This document shows positions 28,733 to 49,752 of a DNA stretch of 64,000 bases, piece by piece; the stretch's first letter is position 1; each line of letters begins with the position of its first letter. The position numbers and the translations under genes were made by a program. The stretch comes from Syntrophobotulus glycolicus DSM 8271 (GTDB lineage Bacteria > Bacillota > Desulfitobacteriia > Desulfitobacteriales > Syntrophobotulaceae): NCBI RefSeq assembly GCF_000190635.1, contig NC_015172.1:1612001-1676000 (forward strand), in the 5' to 3' direction. The notes under the pieces are model-generated. The model made no database searches, was not told the DNA's origin, and worked only from the letters and a program-made list of their open reading frames with translations.

Positions 28733-30277
28733 TCAGTTTGTTATCTCAGAAGCTATTGTAAATCCGGTTCCTGTCTTGTCTATCGAATCAGGGATCAAAG
28801 CGTCTAATACCTCAAGACGGAACATGCCTTTCCATGGAGCAAATACGCCGAAGCCCGCATTGAATTCCCAATAAGTCCATGAAATGTTTCGTTCTTCTGC
28901 TGTTTCGCGTACAAAATCTGTCCATATGGCTCTATCATCGGAAGGGGCTAAGTTATAAACACCGAATTCGTCCAATATAACCGGCCTATTGTTAGTTACA
29001 GCCCAATCCGCAACTAAATCAAATAGATCAGAAATCGCATACTTTTCTTTAACGGTCCCTGACCACGGGACTCCTTTTTGGCTCTTCAAACTGTCGAAAA
29101 TCCAATCAGTTCCTTGGTGGGTAAATGCTATAGGCTCATAGAAGTGTATGGAAACAATAAGATGGCGGTCGTTTTCAGGAAGCTCAAGCATATTGACACT
29201 TCGAACTCCGCTCCAGCGGGTATGCGGTACAATTAGGTTTCTTGTTGGATTTGTTTCCCTGATTATGGACAAGGACTTCTGAAGGATTGAATTTAACTTC
29301 TCTGATCCAATATACCAGTCAGGTTCGTCTAATATTTGAAAATATAAATTATCGGAATACTGGCTGTAACGGTTGGATAGCTGTGTCCAAAAAGCAAAAT
29401 AACGTTCCTCGTCTAATTTTTTGTTTGTTCCTTCAGTCAAAATTGGATAGTTATGGAGATCTAGAATAACATTTAAGTCCTTAGCCAGTGCTTGTGCAAT
29501 GGCTAAATCAACTAACTCCAAATAGTCTTCGTTGATCGTATAGGGTGCCGTCTCCAAAGATTGATCGTTCAGTTTTATGGGTAAACGGATATGATCGAAA
29601 CCGCTGTTTCTTATTAGATCCAAATTTGATTGATTTAAGGTATTATTACCTTCTTTTAAAGTGCTGAGAGAAGTTGTATAGCTCACACCCTTACGTAGTC
29701 CTGGTACGGTTGGGCATGTCTTAACCTCATCCGATTTAATCCTAATAGCGTCGATCCAGAGAGAACCAGATTGTCCATGTTCTGTTTCCAGATCAAAACC
29801 ATAGCTGGAAAATGGAGCATTGCCCTCTGGATCAACCCGATAAGATAAATTAAACCATTTTCCTCTGACTAACCCTTCATCATTATGAAACCAAGACTCA
29901 TCTCGATTTCCCTCAGAATCAATTGAATAAAAATATATGCGATTCAGATTCGAGCTTTTGGGGATAAATATCCAGTATTCTATACGATCTCCAGGATTTA
30001 TAGTTTCTGGCTCAGGGCCGGTAATGACATATTTGGTTGAGCCGGAATATTCAATCCTAAGAGATTGTTTCCCTTCATAAGCTTTAGCTGTGTCAGTCTG
30101 TAGTGTACAGCTTCCGACATTCTCCTGAAGAATAGCGCTTCCACTCCATCCATCAGTCTGCCCGGATTCGAACGAATAAGAGAAAGCTGTTAAACTAAAA
30201 ACGTTTTGAGGATAAACACTTAATGAAAGGGCAGCGATCAATATAAAAACCGTTAACTTTTGAAAAAATCTTTTCAT
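28733..30277 (-). CDS. Secreted GH5-family glycosidase with N-terminal carbohydrate-binding-like domain
   Basis: 514 residues from the ATG at 30277, which has GGAGG seven bases upstream; an ATG at 30292 overlaps that site. A signal peptide (about 1-30) is followed by a jelly-roll-like domain (about 30-185, FESGQTDGWSGSA to GSLWIDAIRI) and a GH5 cellulase-type barrel (about 195-490). The proposed acid/base is Glu318 in FQILDEPDW and the nucleophile Glu437 in PVILDEFGVY. The usual GH5 Asn before the acid/base (NEP) is Asp here. It should act outside the cell on a beta-glycan, perhaps the adjacent exopolysaccharide (inference). Two c-di-GMP riboswitches lie in its leader. Confidence 0.88.
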   Translation of the reverse strand: MKRFFQKLTVFILIAALSLSVYPQNVFSLTAFSYSFESGQTDGWSGSAILQENVGSCTLQTDTAKAYEGKQSLRIEYSGSTKYVITGPEPETINPGDRIEYWIFIPKSSNLNRIYFYSIDSEGNRDESWFHNDEGLVRGKWFNLSYRVDPEGNAPFSSYGFDLETEHGQSGSLWIDAIRIKSDEVKTCPTVPGLRKGVSYTTSLSTLKEGNNTLNQSNLDLIRNSGFDHIRLPIKLNDQSLETAPYTINEDYLELVDLAIAQALAKDLNVILDLHNYPILTEGTNKKLDEERYFAFWTQLSNRYSQYSDNLYFQILDEPDWYIGSEKLNSILQKSLSIIRETNPTRNLIVPHTRWSGVRSVNMLELPENDRHLIVSIHFYEPIAFTHQGTDWIFDSLKSQKGVPWSGTVKEKYAISDLFDLVADWAVTNNRPVILDEFGVYNLAPSDDRAIWTDFVRETAEERNISWTYWEFNAGFGVFAPWKGMFRLEVLDALIPDSIDKTGTGFTIASEITN

Positions 30278-30292
30278 TTTTGAAACCTCCAT

Positions 30293-30366
30293 CTTTGGTA
30301 GCTGGCTGCCATGTTACAGGCCCTTTAGCTTTGCGTCGCTGCTTTTCAGCAGGTTTGCCATTGTCA
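30293..30366 (-). ncRNA. c-di-GMP-I riboswitch (GEMM), copy proximal to the GH5 gene
   Basis: Read on the minus strand it has, in order, the class I core GGCAAACC, a CTGCT-GAAA-AGCAG hairpin with GNRA tetraloop, GACGCAAAGC, GGGCCT and GGCAGCCAGCTACC. These are the signature blocks of the c-di-GMP-I aptamer. Its 3' end is about 8 bases from the GGAGG ribosome site of the GH5 gene, which suggests control of translation initiation, although a terminator role is not excluded. Confidence 0.93.
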
Positions 30367-30401
30367 GTATTGAGCTTCAAAGAGAAAACAAAAAAAACTA
30401 A

Positions 30402-30475
30402 CTTTGGTAGCTGGCTGCCATGTTACAGGCCCTTTAGCTTTGCGTCGCTGCTTTTCAGCAGGTTTGCCATTGTCA
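30402..30475 (-). ncRNA. c-di-GMP-I riboswitch (GEMM), upstream copy
   Basis: A 74-base block identical to the copy at 30293-30366, repeated with a 109-base period. On the minus strand it comes first in the transcript. The linker after it carries a run of eight T (plus-strand A-run around 30390-30397), so this copy may have its own terminator-like output. Tandem aptamers of this class are known in other bacteria and can sharpen or combine responses. Confidence 0.92.
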
Positions 30476-30663
30476 ATAATAGTTTTAAACAAAAATACGC
30501 TTTCCTATTACAAAAATAGCATATTATTCTCATATAGTAAAGACTTTCCTAGGATAATTTCATAAAAATATAAAAAATGAGTCAATTTGGGGATTCATAG
30601 CTTTTTTAGCCCGAATATCTTGTTTTTGGCGAATTATTATTCCATTAGTAATGGTTCCTGTTC

Positions 30664-30722: not shown

Positions 30723-31454
30723 TCAGGTAATGCTTTTGCGGTGCTCTAAGCGGTAACTGTTGCCCGTCATGTTGAGGATCTCGCAGCGGTGAATCAGACG
30801 GTCTAGGATAGCGGTTGTAATGGTCGCATCGCCAAGGAACTCGGCCCACTCGTCAAACCCTTTGTTGGATGTAATAATCAGCGAAGTGCGCTCGGCCATG
30901 GAAGATACAAAGCTAAAGAACAGATTGGCCTCTGCTGGCGAGAGCGGCATAAAACCCACTTCATCAACAATTACCAGCGCAGCCTTGCTTAGATATTTGA
31001 GCCGCCGTTTGCTGGCCCCGGAGATTTCGGCCGTCTTGAGAATCTTCATCAGGTTGTCTAAGGTTTCAAAGGCCACCGCATAGCCCAAGTCCAGCCCCTT
31101 CACAGCCAGGGACAGAGCAAGATGTGTTTTTCCAACGCCGGGAGGCCCCAGAAAACAAACGTTGTACGCTTGCTCAACCCAAGTCATATCGCTCAGTCGC
31201 AGCATCTGCTCCTTGGAAACACTGCGCTGGAATCCAAAGTCAAACGAATCCATGGTTTTCTCAGCCGGTAAGTTGGCTCTGCGGCAGCGCAACAGATTTT
31301 GCTTTTGTATCCGAAGCCGTTGCTGTTCCTGCAAAAACAGCTCTACGCTTTCCACGGGGGTCAAGGTGTTCTTCCCAGCAAAAAGTGCTTCAAAATCTAT
31401 GGGGTTCATGCGCAAGTCGGAAAGCAGTCCACTTACCCGGTCAATGGGGCGCAT
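30723..31454 (-). CDS. istB: IS21 transposition helper ATPase IstB
   Basis: 243 residues. The AAA+ ATPase has Walker [18 protein letters not shown] and Walker [16 protein letters not shown], followed by sensor [13 protein letters not shown]. IstB binds DNA non-specifically and helps IstA capture target DNA. Its ATG overlaps the istA stop by one base (TAATG), so it is translationally coupled. No frameshift is seen; the element may be active. Confidence 0.95.
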
Positions 31455-32962
31455 TATTTAGCACCTCCCGCCTTGGCATAGACGCTAAGGGAGCGCTTTT
31501 GCGTTGTCACATGGTATTTTGCACTGCTCACCGGAAGGAGCAGCGCTGGCGGTTCGGGCTGTTTAGGGACCCTGTGCTCCAGATAGCCTTTTATGTAGTT
31601 GGCACTGTAGAGTTTGCTGTCATGACAAAAATCAGCCGCTTCCAGGACAGCCTCAATACCATACTGGTCGCAGAGTGTGTGGATCAGTTTAAACTGGTCT
31701 CTGGCATACCGGGATTTCTCGGTACGGATCTCCTGGAGGAAATCATCCGCCTTGCCAAGCAGAAGCACGCCTAGTGCAGCTTGCATCTGATCCAGGGAAC
31801 TGGTCCTATCGCGTTGGTGGCTTGTACTTTGGATAAGCAGACCTCTCCCGCTGGAAAGGCGGTGCTCGCAGATTGGCTCTCCAAAAACCGTCTGGATGAA
31901 TAACATGCCGTCCTTAGGCACAATGCAAACCTCTTTCTGCCTGTTGTAAGTGCCAAGCGGAACGGAATATCGGTTGCTGTCATAAAGAATGGTATTGTCC
32001 TTGCGGACCGTTCTGCAAAGGGTGGCGCCATGAGTTTCTGCGCACTCGACCAGTGGACGCAGGTGTTCCCGTTCTTCGGCAAAGACTTCCGCAGGAACGC
32101 GCTTGGTTGTTCCGTGGATTTTGGCATTGGCGGTACGTTCCAGCCAATCCAGGCAGCTGCTGTTTAGGATATCATCATCCACGTAGAGTCGGTTTTCCAG
32201 GAAATTGCCCTTCACATATTTTACGGTGCTTTCTATCTTGCCTTTGCTTTCCGGGTCGGCGCCACGGCACATATAAATGCTCAGTTTGCATTCCTGCCGG
32301 AGTTTTTCAAACTCATAGGTATGGATGATATCGCCAGCATTTTCTGCCACACAAACGATACTGTCCTGGTCTAAGACCAGTTCTTGCGGGATTCCCCCCA
32401 TATACCGAAAGCAGTGGTGGCAGGCTCGCACTAAATCGGTAGCGGCGTAGGGGCGACTCTGCAGCTCGGCATATTTAAAACGGGAGTGGGCCAGAACAAA
32501 GGCGGCTGTATAGACCTTGGTGCGGCCACTGCCTACGTTTTTCAACCACTTCTCGCCAAAATCCACTTGCAGCTGCTGCCCCATGGGCAATTCCGGAACG
32601 GCTGCATAGTCTCGTGGATTGGGGGCTTTGCGGAGATCATACGTGTTGCGCAGGTCTTTCACATATCGGGAGACCGTGCGTTCGCTAAAGGTCGCTTTGT
32701 AGTGTTCTTTTAACCAATCACAAACCTGAGCCGCACTCAGTGTGGGATAATCCCGCAGCCAGCAGACGATGGTGTCCTGGTAATCGTCCAGCAGTCTGAC
32801 CTTGCACACGCTGGCTGTGTTGGTTTCATACTCATCTACGGTCATCTTCCAATAGCGGTCCACCGTTCTCCAGTTAAGGCCAAGGCTTTTTGCCACGGCA
32901 TCTTTTCGGAATCCTTGTTCTTTGAGTTGCTGTATTTTACTATACACAGAATATCCCTTCAT
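31454..32962 (-). CDS. istA: IS21 family transposase IstA
   Basis: 502 residues. An N-terminal helix-turn-helix ([20 protein letters not shown] and following) precedes a DDE integrase core with Asp in [12 protein letters not shown], Asp in [12 protein letters not shown] and Glu in [15 protein letters not shown], and a C-terminal beta-barrel-like region ([13 protein letters not shown]). IstA cuts and joins the IS ends. The full frame is intact. Confidence 0.95.
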
Positions 32963-35440: not shown

Positions 35441-35535
35441 GCGGGGTGCCAATAGGTAAAAATAATGGTCCTTCTAAATAATTATTTGGGAAAGCAGGCA
35501 GAACCACAAAAAGTTGGAAAAGCGCGGTGAAAATC

Positions 35536-37494
35536 ATGAGTGTAATATGGGGACTCTACCAAAAAAAAGGCAATGGAATTGAAAAAGAAAAGTATGCGAA
35601 AATGATTGCGCCGTTAACATCCATACAGTTTGACCGGCTGGATGCTTTTAATTGTAAGGATGTTTATTTTGGATGCGGGCACCAGTATATTACCCCTGAG
35701 TCGGTGTATGAGATTCTTCCCCGCAGTGAAGAGAAAACAGGGCTTTGTATTACAGCTGATGCCATTATTGATAATCGCCGGGAGTTATTTGAGACACTTG
35801 CCGTTGATAAGGAGTTGCAGGAGATAATAACTGACAGTGAACTGATTCTTCTTGCCTATCGGAAATGGGGACAAGACTGCCCCAAGTATTTAGTGGGAGA
35901 CTTTGCCTTTGTCATAAAGGATGATCATAAAAACGAGATTTTTTGTGCCAGAGACCACGTGGGAAAACGAACGCTGTATTATGATGACTCGGAAAATGTC
36001 TTTGCCTTTTCCACCCTGATGAAGCCCTTGCTTGCCAGACAAGACCATATGGCGTTAAATGAGAGGTGGATCGCTGACTTTCTCGCCATAGAAACGACTA
36101 TACACGAAACTGAATGCGGCGAAACGGTCTATCAGGGAATCAATCAACTGCCGCCGGCATTTTGGATGCGCGTCGGAAACGGTGGCACTGTAAAAAAGCA
36201 ATATTGGGATCCGCTGAGGGAAGTAAAACCGTTGATTCTCAAAACAGATGAGGAATATGAGGAGGCCTTTAGAAAAGTATTTGATGAGGCTGTAGCCTGC
36301 CGGTTGCGCAGTACCGGCGAGGTCGGGATCAAAATGAGCGGTGGTATTGACTCCGGATCAATCGGTTGTATCGCGGCGGCACAGCTAGCAAAAAAAAATA
36401 AAAAGCTGTATTCTTTCAGTTCCATTCCGATGGAAGGATTTAAAGAACAGCCTAAGAAAAACCATATCGTTGACGAGAGTGAGAACATTCAGGCGATCAT
36501 TGATTTTGCGGGGAATATTGAAGGAGAGCTGCTGCGGAGCGAGGGGAAGCATGCGCTGACAGATGCGGATAAAGTTGTGGACATGTTGGAGCAGCCGTAT
36601 AAAATCTTTCGCAATATGTACTGGCAGCTCCATGTGACGGAACGGGCCGCTCAAAAAGGCTGCAAGGTGCTTTTATCCGGTTCATACGGAAATTTTACGA
36701 TTTCTTATGGGGATTTTAATACGAATACCAAAACCTTGTTTAAAAAGGGGAAACTCATTACCCTGTATAAGGAAATTTCTGTTTTAAGCAAATCAGCCGG
36801 AGTCTCTGCCAGAACAATTGCTAAAGGAGTATTTACTTATATAGTGCCATATCAATTAAAAGATTTTCTAAGGTTACTGCGTTTAAGGGAATGGGACCGA
36901 TTTTCTCTAACGGTTGTAAACCCTCAACTGATAAAAAAATGGAATGTAGAAAGCCGATTTAAGCTTCTGGGCTTAAATCCGCGTACTTATCGCACCGATG
37001 ACTATGAAGCATTTAAAAAACAGAGAGTAAACTGGATATTTTTTTCACATGTTGGGGCGGTGGAAGTTAAACAAGCCGTCTATTCTGGTGTTATTCTTCG
37101 GGATCCTTCAAGAGATAAACGTCTGATTGAATTTTGTCTGAGTTTACCTGCCGAACAGTTTGTTAGAAACGGCGAAGACAGGTTTTTGATACGGCGGGCA
37201 ATGAAGGGGAGAATGCCGGATAAAATATTGTTTGGGCACGCTATTGGCGTGCAATGCGCGGATTGGCTCCAGAGAATAAAGCCCTATTGGGAAAAGATCT
37301 TCACTGAGCTTGATCATATCGTAAAAGACCAGACAATAAATAATTATATCGATATAGAGAAGGTCAACAGAGAGCTGATTTTGGCAAGAGAGAATGAGGC
37401 ACATATTAATGGGGATTCCGTCAATAAATTATTAACGACCATTGTATTTTCCAGATTTATTTCCTGGTATACAAAATATTCCCCAAACAATTAA
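35536..37494 (+). CDS. Lasso peptide cyclase (asparagine synthetase-like C protein)
   Basis: 652 residues from the ATG at 35536 (GGTGA upstream); a GTG at 35527 is in frame. It resembles class B asparagine synthetase: an N-terminal Ntn domain that lacks the catalytic Cys2 (starts MSVIWGLYQ) and so cannot use glutamine, then the AMP-forming domain with PPi loop SGGIDSGSIG near residue 266. In lasso clusters such proteins adenylate an Asp/Glu side chain of the core peptide and close the macrolactam with its N-terminus. A precursor gene, B1, B2, kinase and exporter genes lie within 4 kb, which makes this role much more likely than asparagine synthesis. Confidence 0.9.
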   Translation: MSVIWGLYQKKGNGIEKEKYAKMIAPLTSIQFDRLDAFNCKDVYFGCGHQYITPESVYEILPRSEEKTGLCITADAIIDNRRELFETLAVDKELQEIITDSELILLAYRKWGQDCPKYLVGDFAFVIKDDHKNEIFCARDHVGKRTLYYDDSENVFAFSTLMKPLLARQDHMALNERWIADFLAIETTIHETECGETVYQGINQLPPAFWMRVGNGGTVKKQYWDPLREVKPLILKTDEEYEEAFRKVFDEAVACRLRSTGEVGIKMSGGIDSGSIGCIAAAQLAKKNKKLYSFSSIPMEGFKEQPKKNHIVDESENIQAIIDFAGNIEGELLRSEGKHALTDADKVVDMLEQPYKIFRNMYWQLHVTERAAQKGCKVLLSGSYGNFTISYGDFNTNTKTLFKKGKLITLYKEISVLSKSAGVSARTIAKGVFTYIVPYQLKDFLRLLRLREWDRFSLTVVNPQLIKKWNVESRFKLLGLNPRTYRTDDYEAFKKQRVNWIFFSHVGAVEVKQAVYSGVILRDPSRDKRLIEFCLSLPAEQFVRNGEDRFLIRRAMKGRMPDKILFGHAIGVQCADWLQRIKPYWEKIFTELDHIVKDQTINNYIDIEKVNRELILARENEAHINGDSVNKLLTTIVFSRFISWYTKYSPNN

Positions 37495-37506
37495 GTTTGG
37501 GGAATA
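37477..37506. terminator. Terminator hairpin between cyclase and precursor genes
   Basis: TATTCCCCAAAC (37477-37488) and GTTTGGGGAATA (37495-37506) form a perfect 12-bp stem around AATTAA, which contains the cyclase stop codon. It ends transcription of the two convergent genes. Confidence 0.75.
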
Positions 37507-37545
37507 AAGATCAAGAACTAAAATGATAAATAGCACCTAAAGTCA

Positions 37546-37677
37546 TTAGGAGAAAGAATAGTAAGTATGACCGTTATAAGGGAAGCTGTCATCAATATTA
37601 CCATTAGGTTCGGTGCCAAGCATTGTTTTGTCAAGACTTAAAGATGTAATGGTTGGATTATTCCATTCTTTTTTCAT
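37546..37677 (-). CDS. Lasso peptide precursor (paeninodin-like)
   Basis: 43 residues, found by reading the minus strand in the gap between cyclase and kinase genes. The ATG (37675-37677) follows AAAGGAGAGG. The leader begins MKKEWNNPTITSLSLDKTML. It carries W-x-x-P in place of the usual Y-x-x-P recognised by the B1/RRE protein, and a Thr-Met near the cleavage site as in paeninodin. The best core starts at Gly21: ring GTEPNGNID closed between Gly1 and Asp9, then a 14-residue tail ending HTYYSFS. That gives a 23-residue core with a nine-residue ring, the same dimensions as paeninodin, and a C-terminal serine, the residue phosphorylated in paeninodin. If cleavage is instead one residue earlier, Thr would be at the usual -2 position but Asp would be residue 10. 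Confidence 0.87.
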   Translation of the reverse strand: MKKEWNNPTITSLSLDKTMLGTEPNGNIDDSFPYNGHTYYSFS

Positions 37678-37695
37678 TATTTCCTCTCCTTTCCT

Positions 37696-37722
37696 TTTAT
37701 ATAAATTAAAAAATTATGTCAA
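37696..37722 (-). promoter_or_regulatory. Probable promoter of the lasso precursor gene
   Basis: On the minus strand a consensus TTGACA (37717-37722) is followed 15 bases on by TATAAA (37696-37701), just upstream of the precursor ribosome site. The spacing is short. The precursor could also be reached by transcription from the upstream kinase gene. Confidence 0.45.
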
Positions 37723-37816
37723 TATTCAGGCTAAACGTTGATCTTAAAGCATATCTTACATTAAAATTTACATGAATTCAAGTCCCAAATTAGTTAAAAT
37801 TTATCAGAAAGAGATT

Positions 37817-38716
37817 TTAGAGATCGTTAATCCTTTGCAAAATCAAATCCGTCAGCTCATCCACTGTAAATAAGGCGCGGGGTCTGGTCATCCGAAATAC
37901 AGGGATATGATCGACGACAGCAGCGCACTGGGAAAAATGGTTTGCTCCAATCCCCAAATCATTGACGGCTTCGATTCGATAAGTATTGCTCATGAGGGCA
38001 ATGAGTCCGAGATGTTTATTGAGCCTGGAGGACACTACCGATCCGGTGTCGCCGGGTATCAATTCAAAGATAGCGGAAAGGTCCGCAGGTTCATTCCAAA
38101 ATCCGTTATTGGCGGGCAGAAAGTATTTGTCTCTTTCTCCCTCAATACGAACGAGATGATCGGCATTTTTCTCGAGAAAATACTCTGCGCTGTCTTTCCA
38201 GAGCTTTTGCTGGGGATACCCGGGCAGTACCCGGATAGCTCCGTTCTGATCAATCGTCAAAGGGGCTATATCATCGGTATGGAGAGGGTACCCCAGTTTC
38301 CTGAATGCGGATAATAAGGTGGATTTGCCTGCTCCTGAGGCACCTGTGATGATGACGCTCTTTCCATTAAAAATAAACGCGCTGCCATGAATCGGCAGCA
38401 ATCCTCGTTGCAAGAGAAGTATCCCAAAAGCGGTGCCCAACAGGTAGGGTTTAAAAGCGGAAGAACCGGAAGCGCCTAAAGGTTCAACGATGATTTTGTT
38501 CCCATTGGAGACCTTGAATTTTCCGACATTTGGCGCTAGAAATGAAAAATTTGTTTCGAAAGTACTTTTTTTATCCGACAGAGTTGGCTGCCGGGGGGCA
38601 TCGGAAACGAGCCCCTTTTCAATCATAACATCCGCCGATGAATCATCACCGGACAAAAGCTCATTGAAAGCAACTTCGGAAGCGATCTGTAAGCCAAAAG
38701 CAGTGTATTTGTACAT
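37817..38716 (-). CDS. HprK-like kinase of lasso clusters (predicted precursor C-terminal serine kinase)
   Basis: 299 residues. The region LPIHGSAFIFNGKSVIITGASGAGKSTLL (P-loop near residues 124-132) and YPLHTDDIAPL match HPr kinase/phosphorylase-like proteins, preceded by an N-terminal domain with no clear family (YTAFGLQIASEVAFNELLSG). In the paeninodin cluster a homologous kinase phosphorylates the C-terminal Ser of the precursor. Here the precursor, 139 bases downstream on the same strand, also ends in Ser. A role on HPr itself is unlikely because the true HprK N-terminal domain is missing. GAGG precedes the ATG. Confidence 0.82.
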   Translation of the reverse strand: MYKYTAFGLQIASEVAFNELLSGDDSSADVMIEKGLVSDAPRQPTLSDKKSTFETNFSFLAPNVGKFKVSNGNKIIVEPLGASGSSAFKPYLLGTAFGILLLQRGLLPIHGSAFIFNGKSVIITGASGAGKSTLLSAFRKLGYPLHTDDIAPLTIDQNGAIRVLPGYPQQKLWKDSAEYFLEKNADHLVRIEGERDKYFLPANNGFWNEPADLSAIFELIPGDTGSVVSSRLNKHLGLIALMSNTYRIEAVNDLGIGANHFSQCAAVVDHIPVFRMTRPRALFTVDELTDLILQRINDL

Positions 38717-38912
38717 TAGTATAAATACCTCTGAAATTAAATTTGGACAACGGTAACATATTTGCTTATTTTATATTATAATTGTATTTCAATTAGTTTC
38801 AACAGGTAAAAAAAATATTTTAAAATTTTAGTAAATATGGTATATTTTTATATAATATTCCTCGTTAAACTGGATATTTCGCCATTTTTGTAAGTAAAAG
38901 GAATGAGACTAT
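38717..38912. promoter_or_regulatory. Divergent promoter region between kinase and B2 genes
   Basis: A very AT-rich gap of 196 bases holding several TATAAT-like boxes (for example around 38775-38780 and 38850-38856) without clear -35 partners. It must drive the kinase/precursor to the left and B2-B1-exporter to the right. No open frame is seen in it. Confidence 0.4.
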
Positions 38913-39365
38913 TTGGTTTTTAAGCGCAGGTGGATGAAATTTTCTCATCTTTCTATGAAAGAAAAACTGCTGCTGGCAGGTTCGTTCTTGCTATTGGGTG
39001 CTGTGCGTTTAACCATCTTGGTCATTCCCTTTAGGTATATTGTCCCTGTTATCGGAAAGAAAATGGCAGAGTCCGCCCAAACGATGGACCGGAGGACCTA
39101 TAGGAAAGCGGCAAAAATCGGCTGGGCGATAGACACGATGAGCCGGTATACGCCATGGGAAAGTAAATGCCTGGTACAAGCTGTGACAGCTCTGCTGTTT
39201 CTGAGGATCTTTGGGATACCCTATACCCTTTATTTGGGGTTGGATCGGGATGAAGCCAATCAATTGGTTGCTCATGCCTGGCTGCGCTGCGGTGAGCTCA
39301 TTGTAACAGGAAATGCGGGAAAGGAGCGGTTCCGGGTGGTGTCGCAGTTTGCGCGCAATCAGTGA
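38913..39365 (+). CDS. Lasso peptide leader protease B2 (transglutaminase-like)
   Basis: 150 residues from a TTG at 38913 with AAAGGA ten bases upstream; an ATG at 38934 is possible. The N-terminal part is hydrophobic with basic flanks (LLLAGSFLLLGAVRLTILVIPF), then the B2 core: Cys86 in TPWESKCLVQAVTALLFLR, GIPYTLYLGL, and His121 in LVAHAWLRCGELIVTGN. Cys-His-Asp proteases of this family remove the leader peptide. The third catalytic residue is not obvious; the position after the AHAW block reads Cys-Gly-Glu. It is the first gene of the B2-B1-exporter operon. Confidence 0.88.
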   Translation: MVFKRRWMKFSHLSMKEKLLLAGSFLLLGAVRLTILVIPFRYIVPVIGKKMAESAQTMDRRTYRKAAKIGWAIDTMSRYTPWESKCLVQAVTALLFLRIFGIPYTLYLGLDRDEANQLVAHAWLRCGELIVTGNAGKERFRVVSQFARNQ

Positions 39366-39407
39366 AAGGCTCGTTCGTTTGATCGTTGCAAAGGCTGAAG
39401 GAAATAA

Positions 39408-39731
39408 GTGAAGAAGGGAATGATTGAGATGTCTTCGAAATCTGAGAGAATTGGCCTGGATTCTTGTGTTGGAAGACCCAAAGAGCTGCCAACGGCGGAA
39501 GTTGGCGGGGAAGTTGTGATGATGAGTTTGGATAAAGGAAAATATTTTGCCCTGGATTCTGTAGGGAGCCGTATTTGGGAGCTGATGGAGAAGCCGCAAA
39601 CGGTCAAAGAGATTATTCAATGCTTACTGGAGGAATATGAAGTTGATGAGCAGACCTGCAGAAATAATGTGCTCGAATTTCTCAACAAGCTGGATGAAGA
39701 AGGGCTCATGGAACTGATTGAAGACAGATAA
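39408..39731 (+). CDS. Lasso peptide B1 protein (PqqD-like leader recognition element)
   Basis: 107 residues from a GTG at 39408 (AAGGA upstream); an ATG at 39429 with AAGGGA nine bases upstream would give 100 residues and is about as likely. The winged-helix RRE pattern is clear: EVVMMSLDKGKYFALDSVGS, RIWELMEKPQTVKEIIQCLL and EYEVDEQTCRNNVLEFLNKL. In split lasso systems this protein binds the precursor leader, especially the Y-x-x-P-like motif, and delivers it to B2. It lies between B2 and the exporter. Confidence 0.9.
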   Translation: MKKGMIEMSSKSERIGLDSCVGRPKELPTAEVGGEVVMMSLDKGKYFALDSVGSRIWELMEKPQTVKEIIQCLLEEYEVDEQTCRNNVLEFLNKLDEEGLMELIEDR

Positions 39732-39835
39732 TCGGAATCGGTCACATAATAAGAATCGAAGACATTTCCTGAAGTATCCGGAAGCAAAAAATCCTCTGAA
39801 AGCATCCTGGGAGGATAATTGGAGCAGAATGATTA

Positions 39836-41548
39836 ATGAAAGTAAAAGCTGAATTCTCAAAGCTGATCAATTTTATTAACTGGATTAAACCGGATATCAG
39901 GCCGTTTTTGCCCAGACTTGTCGTCATATTACTTCTTGGGGTGGCCGGATCTCTTTGCGGAGTAGGTATAGCGATTGCGTCCAAGAATGTGATCGATTAC
40001 GCCGTGGCCGGAGAACTGGGTAAGGCAGGGATTGCCATCGGGATATTTGGCGGGATTATTGTGATGAGCGTCCTAATCAATATTGGCGAAGCCCTCCTAG
40101 AGGTCAGGGTGTCCGAAGCCTTTTCCAATGTCATGCGCCAGCGGTTTTTTAAACGGCTGCTGGAAACGGAATGGCTGCCGCTTTCAGGCTACCATAGCGG
40201 AGACCTTTTAACACGACTGACCAGTGATGTGGGCAATATCACAAATTTTTTTGTTCGTGTTTTTCCGGGTATTCTTAGTCTGGGGGTACAGTTGGCGGCT
40301 TCTTTTGCCACTTTGCTGTATTATGAGCCGAGACTGGCTATTATTGCTTTTATTATGGGGCCCTCTACCGTACTCTTCAGCCGGTTATGGGGGCACAGGC
40401 TGAAGGTTCTGAATCTCAAGGTCCAGGAATCGGAGAGCCGCTACCGTTCTCATATTCAGGAAGCGCTTCAAAATTTTATTGTCATTAAAATTTTTGGCTT
40501 AGAAGAGCATAATCGTGATACCTTGCAGGGGCTGCATCAAGACCGGATGGACTGGATCCTGAAAAGGAACCGGACAACGTTGTCAGCAGACATGATCATC
40601 TCACTGGGTTTTTGGGCCGGATATTTTGTGGCTTTTAGCTGGGGGATAATCAGACTTTATCAAAAAGCAATTTCTTTCGGGACCTTAACAGCCTTTATCA
40701 CGTTGGTCCAGCAGATCCAAGTCCCCTTTGTCGGCTTGGCGAGAACCTTCCCCCAGATCATTGCGATGCTGGCTTCCACCGAACGCTTAATGGAACTGGA
40801 AAAGATGCAGCTGGAAAAGAGGGAAGGAAAGATCGGGCAACCGGAAGGGGTAGGCATCAGCTTCCGGCAGGTGAGCTTTGTCTACACGGAGGAGAAGGAC
40901 AACCTTGTGCTGGATAAGGTTACGGCAGATATTGCTCCCGGAGAGCTGGTGGCACTGGTTGGTTCTTCTGGCGTGGGGAAGACGACGCTGATCAGACTTT
41001 TACTGGCTTTGGTCAGACCTTTGGAAGGGGAAGTTTTTTATACGGATGGACTGGGCAAACAGTATGAGGTCACGGCTGCCACCAGGGCTTGGGTAACCTA
41101 TGTCCCCCAGGGAAATACGCTGTTCAGCGGGACCATCGCGGACAACCTGCGCAGCGGGAGGCTGGAGGCGACACCTGATGAGATGGAAGAGGCCAGCAGA
41201 GCTGCCTGCGCCTGGGAGTTTATTCGGGAACTTCCGAATGGGCTTGATACGGTTATCGGTGAGCAAGGACACGGACTATCCGAGGGACAGGCGCAAAGAA
41301 TCGCGATTGCCAGGGCTTTCTTAAAAAGAGCGCCGGTGATGATTCTGGATGAAGCAACATCTGCTTTGGATATGGGAACGGAAATGGAAATCCTGAGGGC
41401 CATAAAAGACTTAAGCGGCAATTGTACCTGTTTGTTGATTACACACCGGCAGACTGCTTTAAAGATGTGTTCACGGGTACTGGAAATACAAAGGGGAAAA
41501 TTAATAGAAAAGAACAAGACCGAGCAAGAAAATCATCTCAGCAATTAA
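39836..41548 (+). CDS. ABC transporter of the lasso cluster (permease-ATPase fusion, D protein)
   Basis: 570 residues. Six membrane segments of a type 1 exporter fill about 1-315. The ATPase has Walker A VALVGSSGVGKTTLIRLL (about 372-390), a Q-loop in TYVPQGNTLFSG, signature LSEGQAQRIAIARA (about 481-494) and Walker B PVMILDEATSALD. The signature reads LSEGQ instead of LSGGQ, a tolerated variant. In lasso clusters the D protein exports the mature peptide and confers self-immunity. GGAG lies 11 bases before the ATG. Confidence 0.9.
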   Translation: MKVKAEFSKLINFINWIKPDIRPFLPRLVVILLLGVAGSLCGVGIAIASKNVIDYAVAGELGKAGIAIGIFGGIIVMSVLINIGEALLEVRVSEAFSNVMRQRFFKRLLETEWLPLSGYHSGDLLTRLTSDVGNITNFFVRVFPGILSLGVQLAASFATLLYYEPRLAIIAFIMGPSTVLFSRLWGHRLKVLNLKVQESESRYRSHIQEALQNFIVIKIFGLEEHNRDTLQGLHQDRMDWILKRNRTTLSADMIISLGFWAGYFVAFSWGIIRLYQKAISFGTLTAFITLVQQIQVPFVGLARTFPQIIAMLASTERLMELEKMQLEKREGKIGQPEGVGISFRQVSFVYTEEKDNLVLDKVTADIAPGELVALVGSSGVGKTTLIRLLLALVRPLEGEVFYTDGLGKQYEVTAATRAWVTYVPQGNTLFSGTIADNLRSGRLEATPDEMEEASRAACAWEFIRELPNGLDTVIGEQGHGLSEGQAQRIAIARAFLKRAPVMILDEATSALDMGTEMEILRAIKDLSGNCTCLLITHRQTALKMCSRVLEIQRGKLIEKNKTEQENHLSN

Positions 41549-49441: not shown

Positions 49442-49472
49442 TTTGGTTAAACTATTTAATATGTAATCATCA

Positions 49473-49752
49473 AAAGTGATGATAGGGAAAAGTAAACGGT
49501 ATGATTTTTTCAGGGAGGAAGCGTCATAGACTGAAAGCGCTTCTAAACGATCGGCTGTTGAAAGTTCACCCTTGAACTGCCGGGCTGAAACCTTTTGGTA
49601 AGTAGGCTGGGACGGAGACTTCCACCGTTACAGGGAAGGGGGTATAAGGAATATGATGTTCCCGTACCTGCTGAAAGAGGAGTCTGAGGACTCAATTAGG
49701 GTGGTACCGCGAAAAACACTTTTCGTCCCTTCAGGGATGAAAGGTTTTTTTA
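49473..49752 (+). ncRNA. T-box riboswitch upstream of DAHP synthase, probably phenylalanine-specific
   Basis: The T-box sequence AGGGTGGTACCGCG is at 49698-49711. Stem I has the loop-E pair AGTA (49491-49494) and GAA (49560-49562), an AGGGAG/GAAA distal arm, and a base helix AGGG/CCCT. By position relative to the GAA and the closing CCC, the specifier triplet is TTC at 49565-49567, followed by a purine, which reads phenylalanine. The competing terminator is TTTCGTCCC (49721-49729) with GGGATGAAA (49734-49742) and seven T. Uncharged tRNA would stabilise the antiterminator and switch aroF on. Confidence 0.92.

Follow-up and report, generated by a model that had tools for sequence, protein, structure and literature searches.

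Organization of the gene cluster

The window analysed here, 64,000 nucleotides of the genome of Syntrophobotulus glycolicus DSM 8271 (contig NC_015172.1, positions 1,612,001 to 1,676,000), contains a complete paeninodin-type, kinase-bearing lasso peptide gene set (Table 1). An AsnB-like cyclase (C), a B1 protein with a RiPP recognition element (RRE), a B2 Cys peptidase and a precursor (A) are found together, accompanied by an HprK-like kinase (K) and an exporter (D). An earlier note on this DNA had placed these six genes here and described a cyclase without Cys2, all of which the open reading frames and the NCBIfam and Pfam matches bore out. The reading frame call of C begins at a GTG at position 35527; relatives begin at MSAI or MSVI, and 35536 was therefore taken as the start. 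Precursor A and K lie on the strand opposite to C, B1, B2 and D, and are followed by a terminator with a folding energy of -23.9 kcal/mol (z -4.64). In three related loci (L016, L018 and L031) the gene order is C-K-A, which suggests that the K-A unit was inverted in the S. glycolicus lineage. When the cluster was scanned for inverted repeats that might explain this orientation, none was found besides the terminator and one AT palindrome.

Table 1. Genes and regulatory features of the lasso peptide cluster (positions in the window)
Feature	Position	Strand	Basis and remarks
C, lasso macrolactam cyclase	35536-37494	+	Asparagine-synthetase fold without Cys2; probable Sgly_1617
A, lasso precursor MKKEWNNPTITSLSLDKTM / LGTEPNGNIDDSFPYNGHTYYSFS	37546-37677	-	43 codons; profile matches and ribosome site
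K, HprK-like lasso precursor kinase	37817-38716	-	TIGR04352 match and conserved residues; C-terminal Ser is the predicted target
B2, leader peptidase, transglutaminase-like, Cys86/His121	38913-39365	+	NF033537 match, conserved residues
B1, RiPP recognition element, PqqD fold	39408-39731	+	NF033536 match
D, ABC exporter	39836-41548	+	PF00664 and PF00005
Intrinsic terminator of the K-A transcript	37477-37506	-	Overlaps the 3' end of C; 12-bp perfect stem and T-rich tail
Candidate promoter of K-A, TTGAAA-16-TATAAT (11/12)	38775-38802	-	Consensus match only; divergent from B2-B1-D

Conservation of the biosynthetic enzymes

Cyclase C matches PF00733 and PF13537, scores 381 bits (E 1.2e-113) against NF033535, under the cut-off of 525, and groups with cyclases of lasso clusters on the tree. 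Its AlphaFold2 model has a pLDDT of 92, with TsnB9, asparagine synthetase and beta-lactam synthetase as the nearest folds in the PDB. The frame is unbroken and deviates at 3 of 93 conserved cyclase columns. Two of these deviations, R568L and N570G, fall together with a one-residue deletion before Gly in the motif RLNxxxRGxQ, which reads LFGHAI-GVQ in C. This change could leave the activity tuned, altered or lost. R568L is shared with two other cyclases (L035 and L038), and further ones vary at the Arg preceding Gly. The cyclases of Clostridium oryzae and Paenibacillus zanthoxyli retain more of the motif than C does.

The kinase matches TIGR04352 at an E of 4.5e-6, far under the cut-off of that model, and keeps His110, Lys131, Asp148 and Asp149, each about 99% conserved among 82 homologues; these correspond to the His-Lys-Asp-Asp set reported in lasso kinases (PMC9266682). 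Because K keeps them and precursor A ends in Ser, phosphorylation of the product of A is to be expected. The peptidase and the RRE protein both exceed the cut-offs of their family models, B2 with 107.9 bits against NF033537 (cut-off 33) and B1 with 90.4 bits against NF033536 (cut-off 80). The conserved residues of B2 are intact, including Cys86 and His121, and every conserved position of B1 is kept.

Identification of the precursor

Precursor A scores 22.4 bits (E 7.6e-5) against NF033524, the PadeA/paeninodin family model, below the curated cut-off of 27, which would explain why it was missed by annotation. We built an HMM from eight Clostridium and Paenibacillus precursors of the YSFS group, whose acid lies at core position 10 (see below), excluding the window sequence, and searched the 1,791 frames of the window with it. 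The model matched A end to end and nearly without gaps at an E of 4.2e-10, while the next best frame had an E of 0.2. The pattern W..P.{9}T.{10,11}D likewise has a single match among these frames, which is A, and the gene has a strong ribosome site (AAAGGAGAGG). The features common to A and its relatives are WxxP, a Thr 13 residues after the Trp, a Gly, and an Asp eleven residues after the Thr, and the tail ends in (F/Y/W)(Y/F)SFS in most relatives.

On this sequence evidence the 43-codon minus-strand frame is a genuine lasso precursor, as the earlier note had proposed from its good ribosome site, and the frame is kept in related clusters, a conservation on which that note had staked its reading; its view of a paeninodin-like, kinase-bearing cluster whose real precursor escapes the curated models is equally supported. 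That A is a chance frame and the true precursor lies elsewhere, as the score under the NF033524 cut-off might allow, is extremely improbable in view of the full-length, nearly gapless profile match, the single pattern match, the ribosome site and terminator at A, and the lack of any other NF033524 match in the genome.

Genomic setting and origin

The S. glycolicus genome is one contig of 3,406,739 bp, the size reported for strain FlGlyR (PMC3156405). In a genome search, the B2 of the window was the sole B2, B1 the sole PqqD-family match, and precursor A the sole NF033524 match. A related cyclase occurs in 8 of the 151 genomes searched, with no other match within the family of S. glycolicus itself, which makes horizontal acquisition of the cluster probable. 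A lasso cluster of S. glycolicus DSM 8271 with the asparagine synthase Sgly_1617 is listed in a survey of anaerobe RiPPs from 2014, which notes HPr kinases in some lasso clusters and gives most clusters without a conclusively annotated precursor (PMC4289311). The genome search gave no related cyclase besides C, from which we infer that C is Sgly_1617. The cluster itself was thus already known, and the precursor assignment and the ring-spacing observations appear to be new.

Directly upstream of the cluster are genes for a Wzz-like protein, a tyrosine-kinase-like ATPase and a VanZ-like protein, and Wzz and kinase homologues are also found within 14 of the related loci. This agrees with a published report that paeninodins are found together with capsule genes; the same report describes their biological role as unknown (PMC13381572). 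Elsewhere in the window, two tandem c-di-GMP-I riboswitches (30294-30369 and 30403-30478, both on the minus strand; 64.7 and 65.1 bits) lie just upstream of an exported cellulase-like frame (28733-30292, minus strand), which resembles a polysaccharide-degrading enzyme, the family being assigned by reading only. An IstA/IstB-like pair (30723-32962, minus strand), of IS21 type by sequence reading only, separates the cellulase from the polysaccharide and lasso regions, and a T-box leader is located at 49470-49733 on the plus strand (124.5 bits).

Core start and position of the acid

WxxP is a hallmark of the paeninodin leader type (PMC13381572), and the true precursors that were checked, A included, have Thr 13 residues after Trp. 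Since the leader is numbered W-15, P-12 and L-10 in the PbaB1-PbaA structure (PMC13381572), a Thr 13 residues after the Trp corresponds to position -2, which makes Met -1, Leu +1 and the acceptor Asp core residue 10. Counted in this way, the core reads LGTEPNGNID DSFPYNGHTYYSFS, with acids at positions 4, 10 and 11 and no Asp or Glu at positions 7-9, where a lasso core is expected to carry one. The Thr-to-Asp spacing is 11 and the C-terminal residue is Ser. Paeninodin and pseudomycoidin cores start with AGPG and have Asp at position 9 (PMC12427821), and AGPG follows directly after Thr-X in the precursors of this type in our locus set.

The earlier note had rightly aligned the leader with that of paeninodin up to Thr-Met, but its nine-residue Gly1-Asp9 ring in a 23-residue core conflicts with this alignment, as it drops the Leu after Thr-Met and needs Thr at -3. 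A leader aligned to Thr-Met makes Leu core residue 1 and Asp residue 10 of a 24-residue core. Its claim of a new core sequence is supported, since the literature searched contains no lasso peptide like it.

Comparison with known and related systems

The window shares with the paeninodin system of Paenibacillus dendritiformis (AGPGTSTPDAFQPDPDEDVHYDS) the gene set A, C, K, B1, B2 and D, the WxxP leader type with Thr 13 residues after Trp, the C-terminal Ser, and an HprK-like kinase with His-Lys-Asp-Asp. It differs in that the acid is at position 10 rather than 9 (with Thr at -2), residue 1 is Leu rather than Ala, the tail is unrelated, A and K are on the opposite strand, and the precursor scores under the family model cut-off. 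Pseudomycoidin of Bacillus pseudomycoides (AGPGKRLVDQVFEDEDEQGALHHS), whose C-terminal Ser is phosphorylated, also combines a 24-residue core with a kinase, but it has Asp at position 9 and a nucleotidyltransferase gene, PsmN, which is absent among the six genes of the window.

Among precursors from 80 cyclase loci of named genomes plus earlier loci, which were picked by similarity to the window cyclase so that the counts are not population frequencies, 74 have the acid at position 9 and 21, from 20 loci, solely at position 10 (acid-10 precursors). The latter include near relatives of A in uncharacterised loci of Clostridium oryzae, C. akagii, Paenibacillus rhizophilus, P. zanthoxyli, P. methanolicus, P. 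soyae and P. spiritus. Like A, these have (Y/L)G(T/S/N) followed by Asp at position 10, a Thr-to-Asp spacing of 11 and, in most, a tail ending in (F/Y/W)(Y/F)SFS; their loci bear a kinase and their cyclases are among the nearest to C. They differ from A in having Tyr at +1 where A has Leu, and most have A and K on the strand of C.

A quick tree of the cyclases shows the acid-10 state throughout the part to which the window and its closest relatives belong. The state appears again in a clade of Bacillus and Paenibacillus and in a pair from Sporomusa, and the tree implies a minimum of five switches between acid-9 and acid-10. Residues of the cyclase, B2 and B1 that separate the two kinds of system were limited to differences confounded with phylogeny, and we claim no determinant. 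In a small set, the Arg of xRGxQ seemed more variable in acid-10 cyclases; this was rejected because most members of both groups have it (96 cyclases).

Some further loci stand out. In two precursors beside lasso cyclases (L026 6514 and L048 5289) no usable acid comes before core position 11, with Thr at -2, and they might give eleven-residue rings or another product. A precursor-like frame (L066 12214; core KGWYPGGGGGSDDDDDDDDCEPISGES) has no acid before position 12, followed by a run of Asp. The Bacillus suaedae cyclase (L058) shows one TGA within the genome-search match, yet its locus contains a 645-residue frame.

A ten-residue ring or a shifted leader cut

The sequence shows which genes are present, that precursor A is homologous to those of related clusters, that K and B2 have their catalytic residues, and that the Thr-to-Asp spacing is 11; from this we infer the following chemistry. 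B1 would recognise the leader through WxxP, with W at -15, whereupon K would phosphorylate the C-terminal Ser and B2 would cut after Thr(-2)-Met(-1). C would then activate Asp10 and close a ten-residue macrolactam from Leu1 around the 14-residue tail, in which Tyr and Phe residues may serve as plugs, and D would export the product. We regard such a native Leu1-Asp10 ring, in a 24-residue and probably phosphorylated peptide, as the rather probable outcome. It is supported by the Leu1 given for lagmysin and stlassin in a review, by the ability of the fusilassin enzymes to accept an engineered 10-residue ring (PMC13352647), and by the intact conserved residues of K, B2 and B1. The likeness to the fusilassin/fuscanodin variants lies in a lasso cyclase accepting this ring size; those variants are engineered, actinobacterial and natively nine-membered, whereas the spacing in the window is natural and recurrent. 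Counting against such a ring, reviews put natural lasso rings at 7-9 residues, one calling larger rings too loose to hold the tail, and the motif of C deviates, with both C and A below curated cut-offs. We found no natural 10-residue lasso ring in the open literature searched, and a report outside it is possible; one mining study sought the acid at position 8 or 9.

Among the window's neighbours on the tree, Leu or Tyr is followed by a nearly invariant Gly. This Gly also counts against Leu1, as it makes a Gly1-Asp9 ring with Thr at -3 chemically attractive. In that case B2 would cut one residue later, after Thr-Met-Leu, and release a 23-residue core with an ordinary ring, Gly1 and eight- or nine-residue rings being common lasso features. 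A Gly follows the extra residue in 12 of the 21 acid-10 precursors; in the acid-9 precursors, however, Gly at T+3 is conserved more still (66 of 74) and is residue 2, as in paeninodin. Four observations favour an unchanged cut and a ten-residue ring. In Alkalihalobacillus sp. BA299 a single B1 and a single B2 serve an acid-10 cyclase-precursor pair as well as an acid-9 pair. Clostridium polyendosporum (L013), with a cyclase close to that of the window, carries a single C-B1-B2 set between two precursors (9142 and 11172), of which one has its acid at 10 and the other at 9. Two relatives (L084 and L065) with the identical junction VNQTM/L differ in the position of Asp, 9 or 10, and the indel lies inside the ring. 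Finally, a shifted cut would replace Thr at P2 of the acid-10 precursors with Glu, Met, Gln or Ala. The same Thr-Glu junction moreover occurs in acid-9 precursors. We therefore consider a shifted cut unlikely, although it is the strongest competitor of the ten-residue ring.

The cluster might instead be decaying, its cyclase having lost part of a conserved motif, with a linear phosphopeptide or nothing as the product. The changes in RLNxxxRGxQ (R568L, N570G and the missing residue) and the opposite strand of A and K, suggestive of rearrangement, fit this explanation. We nevertheless think decay improbable, since 90 of the 93 conserved cyclase columns and all frames are intact, the cyclase model is confident, R568L and a variable Arg before Gly occur in other cyclases, the conserved residues of the other enzymes are intact, and A is conserved across its full length.

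Implications for ring size in lasso peptides

Taken across the relatives, the data lead us to lean, by a little, toward a recurrent natural lasso subfamily of the Bacillota with ten-residue rings, represented by the window, in which natural rings would extend beyond 7-9 residues, the size would change by small indels inside the ring, and relatives like that of Desulfocucumis might possibly reach eleven. Should Asp10 be the cyclisation site in the acid-10 group, ring sizes so far known only by engineering would also exist in nature, and precursors that break the 7-9 rule would become findable. Paired clusters with one peptidase would then be a natural experiment on ring-size control, and the C. 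polyendosporum locus is a natural case in which to see whether a single machinery makes rings of two sizes. If the cut site moved instead, the Thr(-2) rule would have a large natural exception. The ten-residue ring and the shifted cut differ by 113 Da in mass, and either answer would be informative.
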